DNA of 55,195 nt, taken from positions 1 through 55,195 of the IMG/VR virus record IMGVR_UViG_3300032323_002612; one strand, 5' to 3'. The stretch is from a virus. This document shows, in pieces, positions 13,490 to 41,410 of this stretch. The translations under genes and the position numbers were made by a program. How positions within the stretch are numbered: the stretch's first letter is position 1; each line of letters starts with the position of its first letter. The notes beneath the pieces are model-generated. The model was not told where the DNA came from, searched no databases, and saw only the letters and a program-made list of their open reading frames with translations.

Positions 13490-13720
13490 TTAACCACCAT
13501 AATGTTTGATAACTGTGTTCAATGCTTCAATCATGCGAGTGTTGATAGCAACATCTTCTGGATGCAGCCAATAGCCATCAGGATTGGTATCTGTGCGTGG
13601 ATTCTTTTTCCACTCACTCAACTCTTTCTTGAGATAGGCTCGTTGTTCTTTCAAATTCAGCACAGTGATGCGATCGGCGGCCTCGCCGTCTAGTGTGATA
13701 GGCCCAACTCGTTTGCTCAC
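13490..13720 (-). CDS. Small hypothetical phage protein
   Basis: 76 aa with a GTG start at 13720, fixed by AGGAG upstream and by GTGA overlap with the ligase stop. The product is a charged, helix-rich protein with the stretch LKEQRAYLKKELSEWKK, perhaps a coiled coil. No function recognised. Confidence 0.6.
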   Translation of the reverse strand: MSKRVGPITLDGEAADRITVLNLKEQRAYLKKELSEWKKNPRTDTNPDGYWLHPEDVAINTRMIEALNTVIKHYGG

Positions 13721-15093
13721 AGTTTTTCTCCTGGTTCAAATCCACGGAATCGTTTGTGACGAGGGAACCTCAGTGAGTATGTTCCGTCTTGGTTTTGCGT
13801 AACTGCATCAGCTTCAACTTCGCCGATGACACCAAGTAACTGATCCCGTGCGGCCCAAAACTCATCACGATCGCCATCGCTATAACCAGTACCAACATTA
13901 ACCCGAATATTGCGTCCATTGTCAACTCCTTCGTAAATTATAGCACCCAACCGGCCCTCATTGCGACCAGTACCTTCTTCAAAACCCACAATGGTCAAGT
14001 CCACAGTGATAGTGGGTTTCCATTTCATCCAACTATCACTACGCTTGCAGAGATAGGGTGCATCCAGATCCTTGATCATAATGCCTTCATAGCCCTGTTC
14101 CACTGATGCTTCAGCGAATCGACGCATGATGTCATGCCCTTCTGCTGTGTCCAGGTCTACATCCATGCCCGGCATAATACGCAGGTTAGCAGTCTCTTCC
14201 AAGGCAGATTTGGCACTGTCAAGCCACTCCAACCTTTTGTGCTGTTGCACATTCCAATGGCCTTCTTTGAGTGCGTCCAAGGGCAACACATCAAAAATGT
14301 GATACACCATGTTGCTAGTTTCAGCATCACTCTTGCGGTGTGCCTGCTTCATGAGCTTTTGAAAGCTTTCGCCCACAATCTCGCCGTCTAGCACAAACTG
14401 GCCACCAGTACCACGACCGTATTGAAACGCCTTACGGTTGTCTTCAATGGCTTCGGCAATCTGCGGGAAGTTTTCAAACACCTTGCCATTACGGCTGTAC
14501 AGTGTGCAAACATCGCCTTGTACCACAGCCACCACACGAACACCATCCAGTTTGACCTCTAGACGCTTGATGCCCTTCATTTTTTTGGGCTGTCCAGCAC
14601 TGTCCTGAGCCAACTGTACACTGAACACTGGAATCTTCCACTCTGTGTTGCCCACAACTTTGTTGATGGTTTTTTCAGAGATACCGCAACGCAGATCCTT
14701 GATGATTACTCTGCGGGCCAGGTTGTTCCATTCGTCCGAGTCAAACTGTTCGGCCACTTCTTGAATACGGTCACGGGCACGATGTCCTGTGATACCACGG
14801 GTGCGTAGATTTTCCAGCAAGGCCCAGAACACTGGCCAAGGATTGTCGCGGCCAGTCAGCCCCGACGTCTCTGGCACTTGCCTGACGTTGAATGTGTAGA
14901 AAGGATTGTAGGCCTGATAGCAGTTGAACAAGAAAATCTGTGCGTCACTACTGCCCAGTTTTGCAGCCATCAAGGCTTTTTCGATTGTTTTTTCTTTGTG
15001 AATTCTACTGTCCGAGCTTTCAAGATCGCGGATCCATCCTGCGGCCATTACACCCTCAAACCGGTTGTCGCTGAAGTCAATTTCATTAATCAT
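13717..15093 (-). CDS. ATP-dependent DNA ligase (T4 gp30-like)
   Basis: 458 aa from the ATG at 15093; a longer frame runs through the upstream gene and is not used. The adenylation motifs are in order: EVKLDG with the nucleophile Lys (motif I, about residue 180), YSRNGK (Ia), FVLDGEIVG (III), GYEGIMIKD (IV) and SWMKWKP (V). An N-terminal helical DNA-binding region of about 170 residues and a C-terminal OB-fold region (LTIVGFEEG onward) complete the T4-type layout. It seals nicks during replication and repair. It sits in a run of early genes behind the promoter at 15816-15844. Confidence 0.93.
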   Translation of the reverse strand: MINEIDFSDNRFEGVMAAGWIRDLESSDSRIHKEKTIEKALMAAKLGSSDAQIFLFNCYQAYNPFYTFNVRQVPETSGLTGRDNPWPVFWALLENLRTRGITGHRARDRIQEVAEQFDSDEWNNLARRVIIKDLRCGISEKTINKVVGNTEWKIPVFSVQLAQDSAGQPKKMKGIKRLEVKLDGVRVVAVVQGDVCTLYSRNGKVFENFPQIAEAIEDNRKAFQYGRGTGGQFVLDGEIVGESFQKLMKQAHRKSDAETSNMVYHIFDVLPLDALKEGHWNVQQHKRLEWLDSAKSALEETANLRIMPGMDVDLDTAEGHDIMRRFAEASVEQGYEGIMIKDLDAPYLCKRSDSWMKWKPTITVDLTIVGFEEGTGRNEGRLGAIIYEGVDNGRNIRVNVGTGYSDGDRDEFWAARDQLLGVIGEVEADAVTQNQDGTYSLRFPRHKRFRGFEPGEKL

Positions 15094-15103
15094 ATTTACG
15101 CTT

Positions 15104-15511
15104 TCACCATGAACTATTGTAGAACACTTTGAGTCCCAGGAACAACTCGGCACGAGCATTCTTGATAAACTCCAGGTCAATTTGTCGATAGTATTCGTCA
15201 GCGGCTTCGCCAAAGAAAAATCCTGTTGTGCCTGGCAACTGTCCATGCGTTACTGCCAGTTCCAGTGCATCAAGATCCTGCCAGGTCAACTCCAGCTCGT
15301 CGCCATTGAAGCCACCTTTGTTGCCTTTTGATTCCCAAAGGTCTCGCATCCAACCATGCAGGTTGGGATGTTTGCGCCAGTAGGCAAGTTCACGGGGTTT
15401 GGTCTTGCCGGGCACAGTCCACTCACCGTCTTCGTAGGCCCCGGGTGCGGCATAGTATTCGTCATATTCGCCAGCCTTAGCGGCCACGTATGCATACATA
15501 TCCAGTCCCAT
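15104..15511 (-). CDS. Conserved phage protein, MGLDMYAY family
   Basis: 135 aa. It starts MGLDMYAY and has LAYWRKHPNLHGWM and GFFFG motifs, followed by a C-terminal FLGLKVFYNSSW. This set is widespread in phages and some bacteria, where it has at times been labelled phosphoglycerate kinase without basis. No catalytic site is known. The family is recognised; the function is not. Confidence 0.75.
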   Translation of the reverse strand: MGLDMYAYVAAKAGEYDEYYAAPGAYEDGEWTVPGKTKPRELAYWRKHPNLHGWMRDLWESKGNKGGFNGDELELTWQDLDALELAVTHGQLPGTTGFFFGEAADEYYRQIDLEFIKNARAELFLGLKVFYNSSW

Positions 15512-25900: not shown

Positions 25901-26617
25901 TTACATATTTAGCATGTAGTACTGCTCAACTCGGTGCCACCAAAGACTGCGATATTTTTCAAACTCTGCACCCTCCAGCACAAATTCTTGATATTGTGGG
26001 GGTTTAATGATGTTGAATTGTTCGTCTACGTCGGGTTTGACGCACATCAAGATCACGCCTTTGCGAATCTGTGTCCCGTGCAGTTCATTGTGTGCTTCAG
26101 CATAGGCACACAGTTGCAAAAAGTAATCTTCAATGTACTCGCGTTTTTTGGGCTTGTTGCTTTGCTTGTAGTCAAGAATAGCTTCCTGATTCAAGTGTAT
26201 GCCTGCACCGTCGGTGGTGCCTGCGTACACAGCAGGAAAATACAGCGGAACCTCAATGCCCCAAAATTCATTGACGTTGCACAGGCCTTTGGTGACCACT
26301 TCGTGTGCCATGGCATGACTGGCCCATGAATAAGGATTAGTGGTACGTTCCTTGATTGCACCATGCTTGACATAGTCTTCAAGGTAAGTGTGCATGCGGG
26401 TGCCGCGATTGGCTGCTTCTGTAGTGATCTGCTGTGCCCGAGCTTCACCTACAGATTTTCTCCAATTGGCCAGGGCAATACGACTCTCTGCGGGTTTGGT
26501 TTTGTCCAGTATGGTGGTTACACTGGGTAGTTTGTTGCCATCGGGTGTGGCATAAAATCTTTTGCCATTGACTTCCACACGAGGGATAGGTTTGTATTCA
26601 AATTTTGGGTTGTACAT
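25901..26617 (-). CDS. PD-(D/E)XK exonuclease
   Basis: 238 aa. Motifs fit the RecB/Cas4-like nuclease fold: PSVTTIL (31-37), GTRMHTYLE (72-80), GTTDGAG with Asp136, ILDYKQSNK with Asp149 and Lys151, and YFLQLCAYA (165-173). It would act on DNA ends in recombination or host DNA breakdown. No Fe-S cysteine pattern is present. Its start overlaps the stop of the radical SAM gene upstream. Confidence 0.85.
   Translation of the reverse strand: MYNPKFEYKPIPRVEVNGKRFYATPDGNKLPSVTTILDKTKPAESRIALANWRKSVGEARAQQITTEAANRGTRMHTYLEDYVKHGAIKERTTNPYSWASHAMAHEVVTKGLCNVNEFWGIEVPLYFPAVYAGTTDGAGIHLNQEAILDYKQSNKPKKREYIEDYFLQLCAYAEAHNELHGTQIRKGVILMCVKPDVDEQFNIIKPPQYQEFVLEGAEFEKYRSLWWHRVEQYYMLNM
25906..25913 (-). 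promoter_or_regulatory. T4-late-like box GCTAAATA
   Basis: GCTAAATA lies in the final codons of the exonuclease gene. Predicted +1 is about 25900, giving an 18-nt leader with GAGGAT. Confidence 0.5.
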
Positions 26618-27984
26618 TATTTAAAAATCATTGCTCGTGTTAGAGCAATTGTTGGGTCAGTGTTGTGTTGTATTGTTTTAAATTTTTGTTGATCTTCTGT
26701 GGTCAGTATATTGTACAATCTTTGATTGAAAGTTGCAATGCTCAAATTAGTCTTTTGATCAAAGTATGCTGTGTGACGCAAAAACTTTTCCCACAGCTCT
26801 GGCTGCGGACGATTGTTTTCTAATTCAGCTATGGTAATATTCAAAAAGTTATACACTGCGGCCAGGTGATTGGGATATGCATCAAAGATAGGATGCAACA
26901 AACATTTTCTTAGAGATTCTGCCAGCTGCGGTCTATATTGTGTAGGCAGTGCTTGTACATCCAGATGATTGGTTTGCATGGTCAAATTGGCCACAAAGTT
27001 ATGAAACACAATGCCATGACTACGGTACCATTGATACCAGTACTCCAGCCAGTCATCTATATAAAAAATATTGTTGAGGCTAAACACAGGGCTCACTGCA
27101 CACTTCCATCTAGGCACAGAAGTTTTGCGACCGTTTTTTACAGTCAAACTTGGTCGGAATGTGATCAATGATTCAAGGTTGTCTTCTACCTTTGAAAATC
27201 GTGCTGGCCATCGTACATACTGATAATTTTGACCCACACTGTCAATACTGAGATTTATGTCTACACTGGCAAATTTTGTCAACAACTCCAGTAGCTCAGT
27301 CGACGGGTTCACAGTCATTGCTGTAGTAAGTCTGATATTGACACGAGATGCAATATCTTGATCAACCATCCATCGCAATAGTTTGCTCATGCCCGGTTGT
27401 ATCAGTGTTTCGCCACCAATGAAATGCACAAAAAAATATTCAGCCTTGTCAATCAATGCTGGAATTTGAGAAGTGATTCTGCTCCAATGCTCTGCGTCCT
27501 CGCTGATATCATTTTCGTAAAATTCACTGACCACTGCATTTGTGAGTTTGGCAAACGTGCTGCTTTCAAATGGGGTACAACTACGACATGCAAGTCCACA
27601 AAAATTGCTGAATTTGATTCGAAATTCAAATTCTCTGATCTCTTGAGTTTCGGTAAACAATTCAAAACGATCTTGTGGTAATTCTGCAAATGCTCTTAAA
27701 CGTTCACTTTGCCCACCGTTGGCTTCTTCTTTCCAGCATCGATAGCAAGCAGACGGCCACTCTCCTTCAAGCTGTTGTTGTTTGATTTCAGCAAACACAT
27801 CTGTTCCTGCTGCAGGAACAAACAATGACTCGTCTAGATTACAACAACAAGTTTGATACACTGGTTGTTTTTTGTCGTCGCTGTGTCGTATGTCAATTGT
27901 GGTGTAAGGTGCTGGACATAACGTAGGATGGTTCAACGCCCATTTCATACGCTTGGACATTTGATCCTGTACTTGTTCTATCAT
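26617..27984 (-). CDS. Radical SAM protein with N-terminal cysteine module
   Basis: 455 aa. The radical SAM site is FCGLACRSC (Cys129, Cys133, Cys136), which holds a 4Fe-4S cluster for S-adenosylmethionine cleavage, and GGETL at about 195 fits the glycine-rich motif. Extra cysteines lie before this core: TCCC (46-48) and SACYRCWKEE (Cys80, Cys83), likely an auxiliary Fe-S site. The same module occurs in the gene at 38087-39283. The start overlaps iscA by 4 nt. Target unknown, perhaps a peptide or sugar. Confidence 0.85.
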   Translation of the reverse strand: MIEQVQDQMSKRMKWALNHPTLCPAPYTTIDIRHSDDKKQPVYQTCCCNLDESLFVPAAGTDVFAEIKQQQLEGEWPSACYRCWKEEANGGQSERLRAFAELPQDRFELFTETQEIREFEFRIKFSNFCGLACRSCTPFESSTFAKLTNAVVSEFYENDISEDAEHWSRITSQIPALIDKAEYFFVHFIGGETLIQPGMSKLLRWMVDQDIASRVNIRLTTAMTVNPSTELLELLTKFASVDINLSIDSVGQNYQYVRWPARFSKVEDNLESLITFRPSLTVKNGRKTSVPRWKCAVSPVFSLNNIFYIDDWLEYWYQWYRSHGIVFHNFVANLTMQTNHLDVQALPTQYRPQLAESLRKCLLHPIFDAYPNHLAAVYNFLNITIAELENNRPQPELWEKFLRHTAYFDQKTNLSIATFNQRLYNILTTEDQQKFKTIQHNTDPTIALTRAMIFK

Positions 27985-30307: not shown

Positions 30308-30866
30308 GGTTGGGATTGATCCAATTTTTCAACCATGTACGTTGCAGTCGCACAATGTCCTTGGCCAACTCACGCTGTTCACTCACAAAGTTTGTGGTGT
30401 AATCCAAAGCAGTAGCCGGGGGCAATTCTACCTGTGCTGTGATTTCGTGCCCTGCACGACTCATGGTTTTCAATCCATGTTTGCGGGCTAGGTGTTGTAT
30501 TTTTTGATTGCCTGTGATACAGTGCATGAATACCACGTGCACACCATGTGTTTTGCCCCAGGCAATCATATGAGCCATCAGTTGGTCTGCAATGCCACGA
30601 CCTTGGTAATCACGCTCTACGCTGACTGCCAACTCCCAGTCAGCGTCATCTCTAGCCAAGTGACCAAATCCCACAATACGATCGTCCTGATAGTAGGTAA
30701 ACAAGTGATGCTGATCCTGATGATACAGCATATTCAAGATCATAGCATCAATGGATTCAGGGGACACCGCATAGCCAAACCGTGTGTAGCGATCTTGCTC
30801 GGGCAAGTTCTTTAGGTGAGTTGCATACTCAGCAAGATGCTCAGTGTGGCTGTGTTGTATTTTCAT
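30297..30866 (-). CDS. GNAT-family N-acetyltransferase
   Basis: 189 aa. The acetyl-CoA motif VERDYQGRGIADQLMAH (about 83-99, Q-x-x-G-x-G/A) is clear, preceded by GFGHLARDDADWELAVSV. The rest of the chain is the usual mixed fold with a C-terminal extension of about 40 residues. It overlaps the iscU 3' end by 26 nt and the radical SAM gene by 11 nt, so all are co-expressed. Acceptor unknown. Confidence 0.85.
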   Translation of the reverse strand: MKIQHSHTEHLAEYATHLKNLPEQDRYTRFGYAVSPESIDAMILNMLYHQDQHHLFTYYQDDRIVGFGHLARDDADWELAVSVERDYQGRGIADQLMAHMIAWGKTHGVHVVFMHCITGNQKIQHLARKHGLKTMSRAGHEITAQVELPPATALDYTTNFVSEQRELAKDIVRLQRTWLKNWINPNHAV

Positions 30867-31236
30867 GACGTTTCTTGTAATCTTCTACCGCGGCTTTGAT
30901 TGCGTCTTCAGCAAGGATGCTACAATGGATTTTGACTGGGGGCAAGGCAAGTTCTTCAGCAATTTGGCTATTTTTAAGAGCTGCGGCTTCGTCCAATGTC
31001 TTGCCTTTAACCCACTCGGTAACAAGAGAGGAACTCGCGATCGCACTACCGCAACCGTAGGTTTTGAATCTGGCATCTGTGATAACTCCATCTTGAACTC
31101 GAATTTGCAGTTTCATTACGTCACCGCAGGCCGGTGCTCCCACCATACCAGTGCCCACGTCAGTATCGTTTTTGTCAAACGATCCTACGTTGCGTGGATT
31201 TTCATAATGATCAACTACTTGTTGTGAATAAGCCAT
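30841..31236 (-). CDS. iscU: IscU Fe-S cluster scaffold
   Basis: 131 aa, full length. IscU is the scaffold on which IscS builds 2Fe-2S clusters. Ligands Cys37 (PACGD), Asp39, Cys62 (YGCGS), His104 and Cys105 are all present, as is LPPVK (98-102), the site recognised by HscA. It should therefore plug into the host ISC machinery. It is first in an operon that leads to GNAT, three radical SAM genes and iscA, behind its own promoter. AAGGAG precedes the ATG. Confidence 0.95.
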   Translation of the reverse strand: MAYSQQVVDHYENPRNVGSFDKNDTDVGTGMVGAPACGDVMKLQIRVQDGVITDARFKTYGCGSAIASSSLVTEWVKGKTLDEAAALKNSQIAEELALPPVKIHCSILAEDAIKAAVEDYKKRHENTTQPH

Positions 31237-31293: not shown

Positions 31294-31650
31294 TTAGATG
31301 CCGCGATCTTTTTTGGCAGCAGATTTGGCAGCAGCGGCCACGATGTCTTGTGCTTTGTTTACGGGCATTTGAACAGGACCTTCTTGTCCTGCACCTTTGA
31401 ACACAATTTGGTTTGTGTTGGGATCCAGTGGCTCTAACACACTGCTCAGTGGTGGCTGACCCACAATCTCCTGAACGTTGTTTCGGTTTACGTTGATATC
31501 CAGGCTTTGTGCCAAGTTTATAAACGCATCTACACTGATCTGTTTTGGAGCGCTAGTGTCATCTGCTCGTCCAGCCAAGAACTGCACCAGTCCCAACAAT
31601 TGGTCAGGACTGGGAGTAGACGAAGATCCAGCGACTTCAAATATTTTCAT
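31294..31650 (-). CDS. Small virion-associated protein (candidate)
   Basis: 118 aa. The N-terminus MKIFEVAG has an I-x-E site like that cut by the T4 prohead protease. The rest is Ala/Gln/Pro-rich with no known domain. It lies in the virion block and starts with the stop of the 301-aa gene upstream. A head-internal role is only inferred from place and N-terminus. Confidence 0.55.
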   Translation of the reverse strand: MKIFEVAGSSSTPSPDQLLGLVQFLAGRADDTSAPKQISVDAFINLAQSLDINVNRNNVQEIVGQPPLSSVLEPLDPNTNQIVFKGAGQEGPVQMPVNKAQDIVAAAAKSAAKKDRGI

Positions 31651-32555
31651 TATCTACGTGCACGGCCCAACACTGCACCAGCTGGTTCAGCATCAGGTTC
31701 AACTGGTTCAGCAGCCATCTCGCCTGCTTCTGCACCTAGTTCAGCACCCATATCAGCACCTAGTTCAGCACCCATATCGGCACCGGCTTGTGCACCCATG
31801 GCAGCAGCGTCTGGTGCAGCAGGAGCAGCAGTACCAGTTACCACGCCCAGGGCTTGATCCAGTTGTTGTTTGGCACCTTGTAGATTTTGCATGAGTCCGC
31901 TGAGTGCAGCACTAGCGTCAGCATTGAATTGTGTGGCTTGGTCAATACCAACTTGGTTCTTGATTGAGTCAACCAAGGCAGGCAATTCTTTGAATTGCAG
32001 TTCGCTGACATCTTCCAACATGCCTTGCATTTTATCAACCATGTCTTGAGCTGCCAACACCACTTGAGCCTGTTGTACTTCTGATTCTTTCAGCATACGA
32101 TATGCACGACGCAGACGACTTTCTTGAGCCATCATAGCAGCGCCAGCTACCATCTTTTGTTCTTCAGGATTCAGTGTCTGTCCTGCTTGACTCTTCTTGA
32201 GTGCGGCCGCAAGTTTGGGATCCTTGGCAGCAGCCCCAGCCACAGCAGGCTTGGGTTGACCAGCAGGAGCAGCAGCAGGTTGTTGACCGGCAGCAGCAGG
32301 AGGCATGTTCTCTTTGACTCGTTGAGCGAGAGCTTGCTCCATCATGACCAGTTTGAGATAACTGGGGTTCTGCTCGCTGGTGTGTCTCGCGGTGGTACTG
32401 CGATGTTCACCCAACAAGCTACGCACACGAGTCAACAGTTGTTGAGTCTGAGTGCGAGTCAAGTTTTCAAACTTGATGCTGGGACCAAAGTAACTTTCAA
32501 ATACTTTGGCGATTTGCTTTGTGGGACGCGGAGCGGCCAGGTCGTTCAGTTTCAT
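31650..32555 (-). CDS. Predicted virion or prohead protein, Ala-rich
   Basis: 301 aa. The first 100 residues are helical and basic; residues 90-120 form an Ala/Pro/Gln linker; 150-245 are long helices (EVQQAQVVLAAQDMVDK) that could form a coiled coil; the C-terminus is an Ala/Gly/Glu low-complexity tail with MGAELGAD repeats. This layout resembles prohead core or scaffold proteins. GAGGAT and a GCTAAATA box precede it. Confidence 0.6.
   Translation of the reverse strand: MKLNDLAAPRPTKQIAKVFESYFGPSIKFENLTRTQTQQLLTRVRSLLGEHRSTTARHTSEQNPSYLKLVMMEQALAQRVKENMPPAAAGQQPAAAPAGQPKPAVAGAAAKDPKLAAALKKSQAGQTLNPEEQKMVAGAAMMAQESRLRRAYRMLKESEVQQAQVVLAAQDMVDKMQGMLEDVSELQFKELPALVDSIKNQVGIDQATQFNADASAALSGLMQNLQGAKQQLDQALGVVTGTAAPAAPDAAAMGAQAGADMGAELGADMGAELGAEAGEMAAEPVEPDAEPAGAVLGRARR
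31732..31779. repeat. Two 24-nt tandem repeats in the Ala-rich gene
   Basis: Units 31732-31755 and 31756-31779 differ at one base and encode two copies of an 8-residue MGAELGAD-type unit in the acidic tail. They may vary in copy number by slippage. Confidence 0.8.
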
Positions 32556-34235: not shown

Positions 34236-36128
34236 TCACCGAGTTTGCGGATTGTTTTGCATGCGATTTTGAGCAGCAAAAGCATTGGGATCAAAGCGAT
34301 TCACTGCCTTGGCATAGCCTGCAGGTGTGGCCATAACCCAACCTTCTTGTCCAGGATGCTCAAGATCAGCCTGTCGCAAGATATCCATCTTGATGTCATG
34401 CAACAACAAGAATGCTGTAAATGCAGCAGCCATGGCCTGTGTGTTTGATGTAGGGCTTTGCAAGTATTCCACAATGTTGCGGAACTTTTGAGGTGTTACC
34501 TTGGTCTTGAGCCATTCTCCAAACTCGGGCAACAATGTTTGCGGATTCAGGGGTGTACCTACTTTGGTGTTGATGTAGTCCACACACAGTTTGGCCAAGT
34601 CAGTGATCTTGTTGGCACGCAGTTCCACAGGATTGAACAAGGTATTGATCGCTGCACCACTGGTGCGTACCAGTTGCTTGAGTTGTTTGACTTTGGTAGG
34701 CTCAACAGCAAGTTGTCGTGGTGTAGCAGGACGCTCCAGCATCAAGCCAGGTACTTCGTTGAAACTAACGCCGCTCAAGGGCTGTCGAGCATCGCCAACA
34801 TCCCCATACATGCTATGAATAGCAATACCAATGTTGCTGTTGCCAATGCGTTGTCCCAAGGAACTTCGTGCTGGAATTTTGTACTCAACAGTGTTGGGAC
34901 GGAACACATAGTTTCCTGCAATTTCAGGTGGTGTCTGCATGTACAACAAGTCACCTTTGACATAGCCACGGAAGTTGGAGGGTAATGCAGCCTCTAGTAC
35001 TGGAAACAGTTCAGCATACAACTGAATCAGTTCTGTGCGATCACCTGAACGACGATTCTGTATGTCCGCCATCATGCGTGGGCTAGTAGCTAAACCATCG
35101 TAACCTTTGGCTTCAAAACCTGATCCGTCTGTGAGCACAAACTCACCTGTGGAGGGTTTGCGACCAAATATCACAGCAGGTTTGCCGTCCCACTTGGCAG
35201 TGGTAGTGCTGGGTTTTTCTGTGGCGTGCTGCACAATTTCTAGAGCGTCCAAGATGCCCTGGGTGCCACGGCGAAACACTAAATCTTCCAAGTGTTCAAT
35301 ACCCTTGGCCCTACCACCTACACCGGGCTCTTCTGCTTCTACTAAGGCAACATAGCCCTTGTTGACAATGCGATCGCGTAGACGTCCCAGGAACCCCACG
35401 TCATCTTCAGACATAGATTGCTGTGGTTCCTGCAGACCTTCACGTGCCAGATATTCACGGAAATCTTTTAGTTTGACTTCTCGATCAGGATCATTGCTGA
35501 GTGCTTTGTAGATGCTTTCTACATTCTTTAGATTTTCTCGAGAGAATGCAGGACCCAGTAGTACTTTGGCCACATAGTTAGGGTCTTGTCCGCCTTTGAC
35601 CAATTCATTTGTGGTGCGACTAAACATGCCATTGGCACCCACTTTGAGTCCCAGGACCTTGGCAATGCTTGACATCAACACATTGCGGTTCATGCCTTTG
35701 TAGTTGGATCCTTCTGCACCGCCGTAGAAGAATGTGCCCCAGTCCAGGTTAGGGAAAAACATAAAGTCTGTTTGCACATAGCCTTTGTCGGGATCTCCAG
35801 CAATAGGAGTACGGAAATGTACTTCGCCAGCTTTTTTGACCCATTCACGTGGATCTTGTTTTTGACTTTGCACAAACTGTGTGAGTTTGGCAGCAAGTTG
35901 ATCTTTGTTGATTTCACTGAGATCCACAGCTAAATCCAGGTCTCCAGATGTGGGCTTGCGACCTGTGGATCCTAACCAACGCTCTTCAGGGAATTCCATG
36001 CCCAGAACGTTTTCAAGATACGCAATGGTAGCAGGTACATCTGCTTGATTGATGCGTTGTGTCAATGGGCTGCCTTGCTGGTCCTTAAAGACATTGCCAC
36101 CTTCCAGTAGTGTGTGTAGTAGTTTCAT
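34236..36128 (-). CDS. Two-domain nucleotidyltransferase-like virion-associated protein (DUF6267-like C-terminal half)
   Basis: 630 aa. Residues 50-130 look like a small nucleotidyltransferase fold: GSTGR (53-57), GDLDLAVD with Asp63 and Asp65, and QTDF with Asp121. Residues 278-450 resemble the DUF6267 family: IEHLEDLVF, then AKWDGKPAV with a K-x-D-G (312-315) like the ligase/capping nucleophile motif, SGFEAKGYDG, GYVKGDLLY and TVEYKIP. The N-terminus KLLHTLLEG contains L-x-E followed by Gly, like T4 prohead-protease sites. It is in the virion block and overlaps the upstream gene by 4 nt. Activity is unproven. Confidence 0.68.
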   Translation of the reverse strand: MKLLHTLLEGGNVFKDQQGSPLTQRINQADVPATIAYLENVLGMEFPEERWLGSTGRKPTSGDLDLAVDLSEINKDQLAAKLTQFVQSQKQDPREWVKKAGEVHFRTPIAGDPDKGYVQTDFMFFPNLDWGTFFYGGAEGSNYKGMNRNVLMSSIAKVLGLKVGANGMFSRTTNELVKGGQDPNYVAKVLLGPAFSRENLKNVESIYKALSNDPDREVKLKDFREYLAREGLQEPQQSMSEDDVGFLGRLRDRIVNKGYVALVEAEEPGVGGRAKGIEHLEDLVFRRGTQGILDALEIVQHATEKPSTTTAKWDGKPAVIFGRKPSTGEFVLTDGSGFEAKGYDGLATSPRMMADIQNRRSGDRTELIQLYAELFPVLEAALPSNFRGYVKGDLLYMQTPPEIAGNYVFRPNTVEYKIPARSSLGQRIGNSNIGIAIHSMYGDVGDARQPLSGVSFNEVPGLMLERPATPRQLAVEPTKVKQLKQLVRTSGAAINTLFNPVELRANKITDLAKLCVDYINTKVGTPLNPQTLLPEFGEWLKTKVTPQKFRNIVEYLQSPTSNTQAMAAAFTAFLLLHDIKMDILRQADLEHPGQEGWVMATPAGYAKAVNRFDPNAFAAQNRMQNNPQTR

Positions 36129-36826
36129 GTTTTGGGAAGATTTTGGGTTTGCATTTTTTGTGCCAAAACGTGACTGGGATCACCAGCATTGAATGGTTTT
36201 CCATTGTACAACATTTGACCAGCAGGATCAAATGTTACTTTGGCTGGCTGGCCACGCTCAGAGCCCTCTGCATCTGTGCCAGAAAATGCTCTGACGTTTT
36301 GTGCTTGAGCAATCATGGTGGCCAGACTTTCCCAGGCACGACTCATTGCAGCAGGATCTGTCTTGGGTGCCATGGTGGCCTTGATCACTTCTTCTTTGGC
36401 TTGCATTAATTTTTCAATAGTTGCTTGGCTTTGCCCGCTAGTATCTTTGGCATTAGCCAGCTTGGTTACATCAAATCCCGACAGGCTGTTGATCAAGGTC
36501 TGAAGTTCCAATTCAATTGCAGGCAGTTTGATTTGATCTACACTTATGATCTTGGGCTTGTGTTGTACAATCATGTTTTGTACTTCGGTGGCCCAGGTTT
36601 CTTGAGCTTTCTTGGCCAAGGCCTTTATCATGCCAGCATTCATTTTCATTGCAGCACCTTGTCGCTGTGCTGCGGTTGCATAGGGACCTTCACGACCACT
36701 GGGATCATCTAAATTGGCACCCACTGCTGATGCAGCTTTTTGTGCTAGAGCACCGCCTAGAGTACTGGCCATTGCACCCAGTACTTCATTGACTCTGGGT
36801 TTTCTTGTTATTTCATAAATCTGCAT
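36125..36826 (-). CDS. Predicted virion-associated protein
   Basis: 233 aa. Starts MQIYEITRK, again with an I-x-E near the N-terminus, then an Ala/Gly-rich stretch and long helices (about 60-150). The C-terminal DPAGQMLYNGKPFNAGD part looks like a short beta hairpin. No known domain. It overlaps the 630-aa gene by ATGA and the upstream gene by 14 nt. Head-internal location is inferred only. Confidence 0.58.
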   Translation of the reverse strand: MQIYEITRKPRVNEVLGAMASTLGGALAQKAASAVGANLDDPSGREGPYATAAQRQGAAMKMNAGMIKALAKKAQETWATEVQNMIVQHKPKIISVDQIKLPAIELELQTLINSLSGFDVTKLANAKDTSGQSQATIEKLMQAKEEVIKATMAPKTDPAAMSRAWESLATMIAQAQNVRAFSGTDAEGSERGQPAKVTFDPAGQMLYNGKPFNAGDPSHVLAQKMQTQNLPKT

Positions 36827-37073
36827 CAGTTTTCCTTACTGATCTGGAAAACTTTCCAGAATCTTTGGTTCGTATGGCATTGAGCAATTTGCGTGTGAGA
36901 TTTTCTGCCTGGTCTCTAGGAAACTCGGATTCAATCTGTTCTATCAAGCGTATAGCAGAAGCAATCACATTGCTGGCACGACTTTCAATGATATGCCTGC
37001 GATCACGCTCAGCATACTTTTCTTCGTACAATGTGTCCAATTCTTCCAGGATACTTTTTGTTTTCTTCTGCAT
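36813..37073 (-). CDS. Small helical phage protein
   Basis: 86 aa, almost entirely helical and charged (KKTKSILEELDTLYEEKY), likely a coiled coil. First gene after a GCTAAATA box, predicted leader 14 nt. It overlaps the next gene by 14 nt. Function unknown. Confidence 0.6.
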   Translation of the reverse strand: MQKKTKSILEELDTLYEEKYAERDRRHIIESRASNVIASAIRLIEQIESEFPRDQAENLTRKLLNAIRTKDSGKFSRSVRKTDADL

Positions 37074-37152: not shown

Positions 37153-38106
37153 ATGACCAGTCAAATCAACCCCCAAGACATCAACGGCAACTATCCAGTT
37201 GCTGGGCAACCCAACAACACCAAAGGGTTTCGTGATAATTTTACCAATACCAAAACCAACTTTGAGTATGCGGCCAACGAGATCACCGAATTACAAAACA
37301 AAGCTGTGCTCAAGCAAGCATTGACTGGTGGTACTTTGGACAACAACATGAATGATGCCTTGCTCTATGCAGCCAAGATACAAGATTTTAGTGCAACGTC
37401 GGTGCAGATTGCAACCACTTCGGGCTTGGTCAACATTGACTATACTGCTGGTCATTATCAGCGTGTGAGTACCACAGGCAGTATCAATTTGGGTTTCTCT
37501 AATTGGCCTGCCAACAACTCAGCTGGTTGGGTCCGCGTGGTCATCAACATTACTAGCACTGCTCACACAGTAACTCTGCCCGCTGAAGTAAGTGTGGGTA
37601 CCACTGGTATTCAGGGTCTAGCAGGCACTGTGATCACATTTGCTGCCACTGGCACATACAGTTTTGAGTTTGTGAGTTATGACAGCGGAGCAACTATTAC
37701 CATCCAAGACCTTAGTCGTCCACTGAACCGTTATACCAACGGAGTGACTTCTAATTCTGCCACAGCAGGCATTGGATATGCCACAGGTGCTGGAGGTGCT
37801 GTAACTCAATTGACCAGCAAAAGTACTGGTGTTACCCTAAACAGAGTGTCGGGACAAATTACCATGAACAATGCGTCGTTGGCCGCGGCTGCAGAAGTCA
37901 GCTTTACACTGACCAACAGCACCATTGCTGCCACTGACGTAGTTTATACCTGCATTGGATCTGGTGCCACCGCTGGTGCTTACAACACACAGGTAGATGC
38001 TGTGGCCGACGGCAGTTGCAGAATTGGAGTGGGCAACAAAAGCACCGGCCCTCTCAGCGAAGCCATTGTGTTGAACTTTGTTGTGATCAAGGCGGTAGCC
38101 GGCTAA
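37153..38106 (+). CDS. Virion structural protein (fibre-like)
   Basis: 317 aa. The N-terminus (SQINPQDINGNYPVAGQ, GFRDNFTNTKTNFE) recurs in cyanophage virion proteins. The rest is Thr/Ala/Gly-rich beta structure typical of tail fibres or decoration proteins. AAGGA precedes the ATG. It converges on the radical SAM gene with a 20-nt overlap of coding ends. Confidence 0.75.
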   Translation: MTSQINPQDINGNYPVAGQPNNTKGFRDNFTNTKTNFEYAANEITELQNKAVLKQALTGGTLDNNMNDALLYAAKIQDFSATSVQIATTSGLVNIDYTAGHYQRVSTTGSINLGFSNWPANNSAGWVRVVINITSTAHTVTLPAEVSVGTTGIQGLAGTVITFAATGTYSFEFVSYDSGATITIQDLSRPLNRYTNGVTSNSATAGIGYATGAGGAVTQLTSKSTGVTLNRVSGQITMNNASLAAAAEVSFTLTNSTIAATDVVYTCIGSGATAGAYNTQVDAVADGSCRIGVGNKSTGPLSEAIVLNFVVIKAVAG

Positions 38107-39283
38107 TCATCTCTGCCAGTTCATGAAACGTCAAAGCTAGATCTTGTTGTCGCAACAGGTCTAGCTTTTTTGTTGACTCCAAGAACTTGGTCCACAGTTG
38201 AGGTTGATTGCTCAATGGCATATCCATGAAATCCAAGATGCTGGTGATTTGCCAATTAGGCGAACTTGCTTCTAATTTGGCTCGCACTTGTTGTTTGATA
38301 ACATCGGGCATGGCTCGCACATTGAGATATTGAGGATGGTGCACCATGTTGTAAAACACAGGAATACTGCGAGCACAAAAATATTCTTGTAGTTCTATGA
38401 CCTGCAACACATTCAAAACACACACTGTGATGCAAACATGCATGCGAATGTTGTTGTGATTGCGAACAAGATTCTGATAGCGAGCAAGATTTTGTTCCAC
38501 TGTACTCCAGGTTTCACCATAGCGTATGTAATCATAATGTGCACCAATACCGTCAATGCTGACATCAATTACTACACTTTTGAATTGAGCAAGAATGTCA
38601 ATGTAGTCTTGATTCCATACTGTGCAATTGGTGTTGATGTGTATGCTTTGCTGTGCCGCTCGTCCTGACTCCACACTTTTTTGTAGAATCACAAACACAT
38701 TGTCCAACAGCATAGGTTCTGCACCATAGATATCGTAGTACTCTACATCAGTGAACCAAGTTTCTAGGTCAGACCATAGCTGTGTGTTGTCCCGATCATA
38801 GCTGGTGCGTATTCGACGCCATCTTTCGAGATATTTGCGATAATCAGGTTCCTGTTCACGTGCTTCAACTTCCCAGTAGTCCCGATACCATTTGCTTGAC
38901 ACCTCGGGCCAGCATGTTCTGCAGGCCAAGTTACAGGTGTTACCGGGCTTGAGATCTACCAGCTGTGGACGTTCAGGATTGACTGTGATATCGGCAAACT
39001 GTCGGTTGGCCTCAGTGCGACGGCTTGTACGGCCAGCACTTTCTTCATTCCAACATGCACTGCAATTTGGATGCTGAATGCCAGCTTCGAGATCTGCTTG
39101 AATTTGTTTTCGAGTAGGACTATTCCAGGCCTGTTCAATGGTGCCTGTGTCTAGATATATTTCTTGCCCTGACTCATCTTGCAAGTAGGTTTGGCTGTGG
39201 CAGCACAGCAAACATCGTCCCGAATTGTGTAATGCTAGGCCTGTGTCAGCCCAAGCACAATACAAATTTTTGCCTTTTTCCAT
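38087..39283 (-). CDS. Radical SAM protein with N-terminal cysteine module
   Basis: 398 aa. CNLACRTC (Cys117, Cys121, Cys124) is the radical SAM site. As at 26617-27984, extra cysteines lie before it: CLLCC (24-28) and PNCSACWNEESAG (Cys74, Cys77). IDGIGAHYDYIRYG and the C-terminal VHHPQYLNVRAMP pattern also match that protein. It stands alone, away from the iscU operon. Substrate unknown. Confidence 0.85.
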   Translation of the reverse strand: MEKGKNLYCAWADTGLALHNSGRCLLCCHSQTYLQDESGQEIYLDTGTIEQAWNSPTRKQIQADLEAGIQHPNCSACWNEESAGRTSRRTEANRQFADITVNPERPQLVDLKPGNTCNLACRTCWPEVSSKWYRDYWEVEAREQEPDYRKYLERWRRIRTSYDRDNTQLWSDLETWFTDVEYYDIYGAEPMLLDNVFVILQKSVESGRAAQQSIHINTNCTVWNQDYIDILAQFKSVVIDVSIDGIGAHYDYIRYGETWSTVEQNLARYQNLVRNHNNIRMHVCITVCVLNVLQVIELQEYFCARSIPVFYNMVHHPQYLNVRAMPDVIKQQVRAKLEASSPNWQITSILDFMDMPLSNQPQLWTKFLESTKKLDLLRQQDLALTFHELAEMISRLPP

Positions 39284-39964: not shown

Positions 39965-41410
39965 TTACCCTGCCTTGATCTTGCCCAACATCTGTTTTAG
40001 TTTGGAACTTTGAACGTCTGCTGACACTTTGGGAGTGTCTGCGTATCTGCCTTGAGTGCTGGCAGCTGGTTCCCATGGAGCGGTGCTGTCTGTGTCGGCA
40101 TCAGCAGCCTTGACCTGACTACGGGCCTTGATACTTTCCATGATGTTGCTTTGAGACTTGTTGTATCCGCCTTCGTCCCCACCTTCATCAGTAATGCGCA
40201 TAGTTTCAATGTTGTACTCCAAATCAATTTTTTGACCAACGCCGGTCGAGCTTCGAGACTTCATACATTGTATTTGATACTTGCCACGCTCTTTCATAGC
40301 ACGACTTGTAAAGATACCAAATACGTTGTCAGCAGTGTTGATCTTTGAAATACCACCTGAAATGTGGCTGTGATCAAATTCAATTTCTTCCACTGCTGAT
40401 CGATTCAACTGTGATGCTGTTACCAGCAACACACCCAGCTCTTTGGCCAAGTTTCGTAGTTCTTCTGAAACATACTTGTCTTTCACAAACAAGTCGTTGG
40501 GACTGACCTTTGCACTCACCGGCATCAACAAGTCCAAGTAGTCTACCATAATAAAGTCTACTTTGATACCAGTTTGAATTTGTACTTCTTTGATGTAACT
40601 GCGAATGTCGTTGATGTTGCTTTGTGCCGGCAGGGCCTTGACTCTGTACTTGCCTGCTGTACGTCCTGTCATTTTGACCTTGAGCTCTGCTGAATCAATG
40701 TCCTTGCGAATCGCTTTGGTACTCATGCTGGTCAACATAGCGTCAGTTCGCAAACTGGTAAGTTCCTCACTCAATTCCAAACTGATATACACACCGCTGA
40801 GTCCTTGTTGCAACCAGTTTAGAGCAATGTTCATCATCACAAGCGATTTACCTGAGCCCGAGCCACCTGCAAAAATGTTGAGTTCACCTCTACTGAATCC
40901 ACCATAAAGCAGTTTGTCCAGTTGTGGCCAACCTGTTGATACTTGTCCACCTGAGTTGAAATATCGGTTGATACGAGCTGCAGGATCAGCAAAGTAGTCT
41001 GTGCCCATGTCCTTAGTCAGTGATATTTGTACAGCATCCTTGATCAGCTTTTCCACAGGATCAAACTCGCCTTTTTCTAGCAAGTCATAAGACTTTAAAA
41101 TAGCCCTAGACAGTTCTTCTTTTTTAGTAAAACCTTCGAACTCTTCCAAAAACCAAGCTTCGTGATTATCGCCCTGTAGTTCAGGCGGCAGCTCATTGAT
41201 CTTGATTCCTGTTTCTGCTGAAATTTGTAGTCGAGTGGGTAATGTGTTGTATTTGGCAGAGTAAGTTTTAATAAATTCAGCCGCTGGTCTAATACTTTTA
41301 TCAAAGTTTTCTGGATTATAAATGTTCTGCACACGCACATAACTTTGTGCGTCAGACAACATCATCTCTAAGAATAGTTTCTGGAAATCAATTCCGTAAT
41401 CTTTTTGCAA
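39965..41410 (-). CDS. DnaB-type replicative helicase (T4 gp41-like)
   Basis: 481 aa. RecA-fold hexameric helicase that unwinds DNA at the fork. Walker A GGSGSGKS (182-189), STGWPQLD before it, LSLELSEE-like ISLELSEE, and Walker B FIMVDYLDLL (about 295) with TASQLNR (about 337) are in order. The N-terminal 130 residues are the primase-binding helical domain. The last 60 residues are a charged tail. It overlaps the primase gene by 23 nt. Confidence 0.94.
   Translation of the reverse strand: MQKDYGIDFQKLFLEMMLSDAQSYVRVQNIYNPENFDKSIRPAAEFIKTYSAKYNTLPTRLQISAETGIKINELPPELQGDNHEAWFLEEFEGFTKKEELSRAILKSYDLLEKGEFDPVEKLIKDAVQISLTKDMGTDYFADPAARINRYFNSGGQVSTGWPQLDKLLYGGFSRGELNIFAGGSGSGKSLVMMNIALNWLQQGLSGVYISLELSEELTSLRTDAMLTSMSTKAIRKDIDSAELKVKMTGRTAGKYRVKALPAQSNINDIRSYIKEVQIQTGIKVDFIMVDYLDLLMPVSAKVSPNDLFVKDKYVSEELRNLAKELGVLLVTASQLNRSAVEEIEFDHSHISGGISKINTADNVFGIFTSRAMKERGKYQIQCMKSRSSTGVGQKIDLEYNIETMRITDEGGDEGGYNKSQSNIMESIKARSQVKAADADTDSTAPWEPAASTQGRYADTPKVSADVQSSKLKQMLGKIKAG

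Follow-up and report, generated by a model that had tools for sequence, protein, structure and literature searches.

Bacterial LigD combines a polymerase and a ligase in one NHEJ enzyme; its polymerase has the primase fold and its ligase carries an OB domain. The phage protein described here resembles LigD in holding a polymerase-like and a covalent ligase-like module in a single polypeptide, but differs from it in both of these structural respects. Surveys of jumbo phages have described RlaP (RNA-ligase-associated Pol-beta nucleotidyltransferase, PF10127), which is encoded beside Rnl1 or Rnl2 RNA ligases and, in this predicted RNA-repair system, would restore lost nucleotides before sealing (PMC7824862). 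RlaP shares with our protein a Pol-beta-superfamily transferase associated with a ligase-type partner, which in the present family is fused or adjacent. In contrast to RlaP, however, the N-terminal domain studied here has no RlaP match and looks PolX-like instead, and the ligase is the unannotated DUF6267, placed in the same chain behind a prohead-protease-like leader. With family X DNA polymerases the N-terminal domain has in common the palm fold, the GS..GD.D..D catalytic set and a thumb-like register, but it lacks the 8-kDa HhH and PHP domains, has a GS-to-D spacing that is one residue shorter, and is phage-specific; ASFV PolX also lacks the 8-kDa domain (PMC5330486). The C-terminal half is a member of DUF6267/phrog_455 of T4-like cyanophages, where this domain stands alone or before a cytidylyltransferase-like domain, whereas here it follows the PolX-like domain.

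Two further groups of phage proteins invite comparison. The T4 protease gp21 cleaves behind L/I-X-E, and leaders of ten residues direct internal proteins into the head; Alt and IPI-III, which carry such short leaders, are processed by gp21, packaged and then ejected (PMC9026906). The leader of our protein is similar, and its packaging and cleavage are suggested by sequence. Polyvalent proteins likewise combine several enzymes in one phage protein and are presumed to be injected early; in the parts of that survey considered here, their Pol-beta domains are minimal nucleotidyltransferases mainly of firmicute elements, and no PolX-ligase fusion was found among them (PMC5512222). The original prediction knew of no described function. 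This holds for the window protein and for DUF6267, for which our literature search found no paper, but a closely comparable pairing, RlaP with RNA ligase, is published (PMC7824862), and the idea of a Pol-beta enzyme paired with an RNA ligase in phages is thus known. As for the N-terminal family and its fusion, what DUF6267 is, and the processing tag, the literature searched does not seem to describe them.

The window, a fragmentary virus record of 55,195 bases, contains an open reading frame of 630 residues, and the positions, strand and residue numbers first given for it are correct. Both sets of motifs reported for it, GS..SGDLD..QTDF and KWDG / GYVKGD / EYKI, were found within this frame, and its ATG at 36128 overlaps the stop of the upstream gene as ATGA (36128-36125). 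The frame and the neighbours that matter here are as follows.

34236..36128, minus strand: 630-residue frame with the PolX-like and the DUF6267 ligase-like domain, a fusion seen in 221 loci
36125..36826, minus strand: overlapping gene on the upstream side, which has a leader of its own, MQI(H/Y)E..[V/I/L]xE (family cluster 5)
36813..37073, minus strand: phrog_11854, virion structural protein (E 1.2e-13)
31650..32555, minus strand: phrog_14154, virion structural protein (E 8.5e-12)
39965..41410, minus strand: DnaB/gp41-type helicase, syntenic with cyanophage DUF6267 loci
13717..15246, minus strand: DNA ligase encoded separately by this phage (PF01068, E 7.9e-24; phrog_114, E 4e-91)

The fusion gene sits beside helicase/primase genes as well as virion genes, and the presence of a separate DNA ligase shows that DUF6267 is not the replicative ligase of this phage. 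Also present in the window are a frame that by eye resembles an IscU/NifU-type Fe-S scaffold protein (30841-31236, minus strand) and, near it, radical SAM-like frames at 26617-27984 (by Pfam) and 38087-39283 (by eye); both kinds are unusual for a phage structural region.

The proposal that two unrelated nucleotidyl-transfer folds share one chain, each with intact catalytic residues, was borne out. Both domains could be modelled, and across homologues Asp63 is kept in 130 of 131 sequences, Asp65 in 131 of 131 and Lys312 in 91 of 91. A chance origin of the motifs was rejected, the catalytic residues being near-invariant in the 131 N-domains and invariant in the 91 DUF6267 domains. Both folds and their intact active sites are therefore well supported by alignment and structural models. 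The N-terminal domain comprises the following elements.

35355..36101, minus strand: PolX-like nucleotidyltransferase domain, residues 10-258 (AlphaFold2 pLDDT 93.3, PDB fold matches, hhalign)
35934..35972, minus strand: conserved catalytic motif GSTGRKPTSGDLD, residues 53-65, with D63 and D65
35760..35777, minus strand: conserved motif VQTDFM, residues 118-123, with the third catalytic carboxylate D121
35628..35699, minus strand: thumb-like signature KGMNRN..A..LG.K...G, residues 144-167, aligned with the PolX thumb HN..LR..A...G.....GLF

In an alignment of 131 diverse sequences, with identities down to about 21-25%, D121 and R148 are each found in 130 members, and S54 of the GS motif is conserved alongside D63, D65 and D121. 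The AlphaFold2 model is confident (pLDDT 93.3), with residues 1-8 below 50 and order thereafter; the 8-kDa HhH DNA-binding domain is absent from it, the chain starting at the palm. When the model was searched against the PDB, the matches listed, at least 50, were all PolX or pol beta, lambda or mu (prob 1.00, E 6e-5 to 5e-4), and 114 matches reached E 1e-3 or better. When bacterial PolX sequences taken from genomes were compared by hhalign, P was 6.2e-7 across some 140 columns, and the register holds from GS..GDLD past the third Asp to the thumb-like LR..A...G.....GLF, whereas control profiles gave P 0.011 (MNT), 0.14 (ligase) and 0.61 (RlaP). Sequence searches of the PDB with the protein and with the profiles of both domains yielded no relevant match. 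No Pfam model covers the N-terminal half of the window protein, and among the 131 family members only weak matches to Polbeta (5/131) and DNA_pol_B_thumb (3/131) were seen, with a best E of 0.01. An identity as RlaP was rejected on its profile score and because PF10127 had no match to the domain at E up to 10; that of a minimal nucleotidyltransferase was rejected on the MNT score set against PolX. By profile and model, the domain is PolX-like and belongs to the Pol-beta superfamily. The first fold had been described as a small nucleotidyltransferase, of which the transferase stands and the minimal type falls, while the structure prediction and fold search proposed for this half gave the confident model and uniformly PolX-type listed matches given above. 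Because the genome contigs held a single relative, L355, the family is essentially viral. This distant homologue (L355, 304-984, plus strand) starts with IKE^GGNA and lies on a phage-like contig filed under an uncultured Clostridium MAG.

The remainder of the chain is assigned to DUF6267, with these features.

34239..35354, minus strand: DUF6267 ligase-like covalent nucleotidyltransferase domain, residues 259-630 (Pfam, AlphaFold2, hhalign)
35184..35195, minus strand: ligase motif I KWDG, K312 being the predicted AMP-accepting lysine (91/91)
34947..34958, minus strand: motif III-like KGDL with D393, where ligases usually have E (91/91)
34881..34904, minus strand: motif IIIa-like FRPNTVEY, residues 409-416 (F409, P411 and Y416, 91/91)
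34350..34700, minus strand: helical insert, residues 477-593, roughly 117 residues (DSSP of the model)
34335..34346, minus strand: ligase motif IV EGWV, residues 595-598 (E595 and G596, 91/91)
34296..34310, minus strand: ligase motif V KAVNR, residues 607-611 (K607, V609 and R611, 91/91)

Pfam places residues 277-612 in DUF6267 (PF19782) at E 2.2e-30 and 106.7 bits, with a cut-off of 27, as the original prediction had suspected. In an alignment of 91 sequences that leaves out the neighbour genes of Atu_ph07, PA5oct and Phosso, K312, D314, G315, D393, E595, G596, K607 and R611 are invariant, and the invariant residues follow one another as ligase motifs I, III, IIIa, IV and V do; EGWV and KAVNR, near the C-terminus, add two ligase-like motifs to those first noted. 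The AlphaFold2 model from these 91 sequences (pLDDT 92.6) has a strand and helix order that fits the ligase core, with the helical insert between IIIa and IV. The fold search proposed for this half returned ligases or capping enzymes for all of its first ten PDB matches, DNA ligases ranking first, yet the matches are weak (E 0.03-0.7, TM about 0.2). In the structure library BFVD, the best named ligases outside the DUF6267 family were RNA ligases (E 4e-3, prob 0.85), including the Atu_ph07 gene beside an N-terminal-type gene. The DUF6267 profile gave no significant direct match to T4 Rnl1, T4 Rnl2, cellular PF09414 or DNA-ligase profiles; Pfam found neither PF01068 DNA ligase nor PF09511/PF09414 RNA ligase in the window protein, and PF09511 finds a weak match in two of the 91 members (E 0.01). 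A PF09511 search of the relatives matched nothing, its controls included, and carries no weight. Only 19 residues follow motif V, too few for the C-terminal OB domain with motif VI that DNA ligases carry, and on this ground a classical DNA ligase was rejected.

A bridge to RNA ligases is provided by those N-terminal-type genes that lack DUF6267 and adjoin an RNA-ligase-type gene instead (Atu_ph07, Phosso, PA5oct EST35_0228, L180, L199, L248, L259 and L266). This adjacent family carries EK.DG and, mostly, EG[VIL]V-like motifs, and aligns with DUF6267 end to end over 289 columns (hhalign P 6.5e-11) with all motifs in register, motif IIIa falling on its PNxIxY. Some of its members match Pfam RNA_ligase PF09414 at 1.2e-5, 6.8e-4, 2e-3 and 2.9e-3, all of them weak and below the curated cut-off, the best just under it, and against RNA- and DNA-ligase profiles from which shared sequences had been removed the family gave no significant match (0.0034-0.22). 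BFVD names the Atu_ph07 member 'RNA ligase'. The bridge alignment and the BFVD RNA ligases place DUF6267 on the RNA-ligase side, with the bridge family's own label being sub-threshold. We consider it very probable, from profiles and models, that DUF6267 belongs to the covalent nucleotidyltransferase superfamily on this side; the earlier call of a ligase or capping type thus stands for the superfamily and is refined towards RNA ligases by the bridge and the motif layout. In PA5oct (L085, 6300-7640), EST35_0228 is annotated as hypothetical and shows EKIDG and VEGYV motifs; from its sequence it looks like the ligase partner of EST35_0231, a protein detected by mass spectrometry.

A scan of viral contigs identified 498 stretches encoding relatives, the best 80 of which are 68-94% identical and mostly full length, some of them in contigs of 300-332 kb. 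After wider searches the fusion recurs in 221 loci, and it is carried by many freshwater giant phages. In 32 loci the N-terminal module is followed by DUF6267 as a separate, mostly overlapping gene, and in 10 a separate N-terminal gene has the other RNA-ligase-type gene beside it. Another 34 loci have other partners, a large protein with a second, weakly similar transferase domain and often a HIGH-type domain, with no ligase on the DNA examined, and in 37 the N-terminal gene stands alone on the DNA examined. The recurrent pairing of a PolX-like with a ligase-type module is well supported, and the finding that either of two ligase-type families can accompany the one PolX-like family speaks for a common task. 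The two modules need not occur together, given the 34 loci without a ligase and the cyanophage DUF6267 genes, which have no PolX-like neighbour, lie among replication genes and are often joined to a cytidylyltransferase-like domain (the phrog_455 layout).

A cyanophage DUF6267 member is matched by 467 phage records. In L082, L083 and S-PM2 (H83), from cyanophages and Melnitz phage, DUF6267 has a cytidylyltransferase-like protein close by or fused to it, the two being joined in a 591-residue protein in S-PM2; a BFVD entry carrying DUF6267, H8ZNG8, is named NrdB, apparently a misannotation. Frames of 780 residues with DUF6267 occur in L251 (1992-4331, minus strand) and L277 (9865-12204, minus strand), that of L251 combining it with a cytidylyltransferase-like and an Acb1-type 2H domain (PF23474, E 3.6e-15) on the strand opposite the N-terminal gene. 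Proteins of 912-1282 residues directly follow the N-terminal gene in L169 (2174-6019, minus strand), L196 (2674-6309, minus strand), L179 (4241-7603, plus strand) and L211 (1472-4207, plus strand); in them a HIGH-type transferase accompanies a second domain of the Pol-beta type, and a DUF6934 or RegB-like domain is variously added.

The start of the chain was compared with homologues on account of one short element.

36102..36128, minus strand: putative nine-residue leader MKLLHTLLE, predicted cut E9^G10 (homologue leaders; pLDDT)

Glutamate directly precedes GG in 220 homologues, 218 of which have L, I or V at P3; as the survey sought E, D or M before GG, P1 is partly selected and P3 is free. 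Another 33 homologues are leaderless and start M^GG or M^SG, so that with an [L/I/V]xE^GG leader or a bare M^GG the mature N-terminus would be identical, and in the model order begins right at this predicted terminus. A gene for an S77 T4-type prohead protease is present in three of five long relatives. In PA5oct, EST35_0231, a distant, split and leaderless homologue of the N-terminal domain, is recorded as 'structural protein, ESI-MS/MS', and the ligase-like EST35_0228 is not marked as detected. Of 108 members of the upstream gene's family, 68 have one of [AGSV] following the E of their leader pattern. A conserved cut-like leader is thus well supported by homologue sequences, and the reading of L-L-E-G as a T4 prohead-protease site gains from this leader, the relatives' protease and the PA5oct record. 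Together with the neighbouring genes, the same evidence supports packaging; for the fused protein itself, packaging, cleavage and injection are predictions. In L200 (7769-11119, minus strand) and L193 (3-1217, plus strand) the N-terminal domain makes up the C-terminal portion of a longer frame, after a long low-complexity stretch of repetitive or proline-rich sequence. These two frames keep an LNE^GG (L193) or ITE^GG (L200) site at the domain junction, far from the start codon.

We tentatively prefer to read the protein as a pre-packaged enzyme that would refill and reseal nucleic-acid ends, RNA being favoured, and that would be packaged and delivered. Made late, it would be guided into the prohead by its short leader and cut after Leu-Leu-Glu by a T4-type prohead protease, giving a mature chain that starts at Gly10 and is delivered together with the phage DNA. 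There the PolX-like module might add one or a few missing nucleotides to a 3'-OH end, and the DUF6267 module, with K312 charged with AMP, would activate the 5'-phosphate and seal the break; the favoured substrate would be RNA, most likely tRNA of host or phage origin that nucleases of the host cleave as infection begins. That it is at once a single-chain PolX-ligase resealing RNA (or DNA), head-packed after trimming, active from the onset of infection and representative of a new ligase family, DUF6267, is possible but rather doubtful.

RNA is moderately favoured as the substrate, being somewhat more likely than DNA, because a separate DNA ligase is encoded in the window and in five relatives, because DUF6267 has no room for an OB domain and leans in similarity to RNA ligases, and because one split homologue locus, L251, carries the Acb1-type 2H domain. 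DNA is the main rival on account of the PolX affinity of the N-terminal domain and the helicase/primase neighbourhood. A protein of this kind might refill and seal gaps, nicks or packaged ends of the phage genome in the capsid or just after injection, as a PolX and ligase pair does in base excision or end joining; repair pairs of PolX and DNA ligase are known in a eukaryotic DNA virus (PMC5330486). The fold matches speak for it, those listed for the N-terminal domain (at least 50) being all family X DNA polymerases and the top ones for DUF6267 being DNA ligases, the latter weak (E 0.03, TM 0.2). We nevertheless regard DNA repair as somewhat unlikely, since the sequence bridge leads to RNA-ligase-type proteins, not DNA ligases, and the ordinary ligase and the missing OB domain argue in the same direction. 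Nucleotidylation of a protein, sugar-phosphate or cofactor, with the PolX-like, ligase-like and HIGH folds forming a modification pathway, would account for the joining of DUF6267 to cytidylyltransferase-like domains in cyanophages and L251, and for the large proteins, encoded after N-terminal-type genes, in which a HIGH domain is found along with a second transferase. The palm and thumb-like PolX register and the full ligase motif set are, however, features of nucleic-acid enzymes, and where the genes are split, in Atu_ph07, Phosso and PA5oct, the N-terminal gene is paired with an RNA-ligase-type gene, which makes such a target quite improbable.

A different question is where the enzyme acts, and it overlaps all of these readings. 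It is unlikely that the protein is an ordinary cytosolic enzyme, never packaged, with its leader removed or kept for some other reason. The 33 leaderless homologues and the cyanophage DUF6267 genes among replication genes would fit such an enzyme, and the virion record comes from the split PA5oct homologue, not from a fused member; this record is nonetheless of an N-terminal homologue, the leader motif is retained far from the start codon in L193 and L200, and virion-type neighbours bear similar leaders. That the chain is a catalytically dead structural protein reusing two enzyme folds, as the virion-gene neighbourhood might suggest, is very improbable indeed, the catalytic residues of both domains being invariant down to about 25 percent identity.

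If the refill-and-reseal reading is true, DUF6267, unnamed across hundreds of cyanophage records, would gain a biochemical identity as a new family of ligases whose transferase partner modules are exchangeable. The reading would also set apart from RlaP a PolX-like family specific to phages, and would suggest that nucleic-acid repair may arrive ready-made in the virion.
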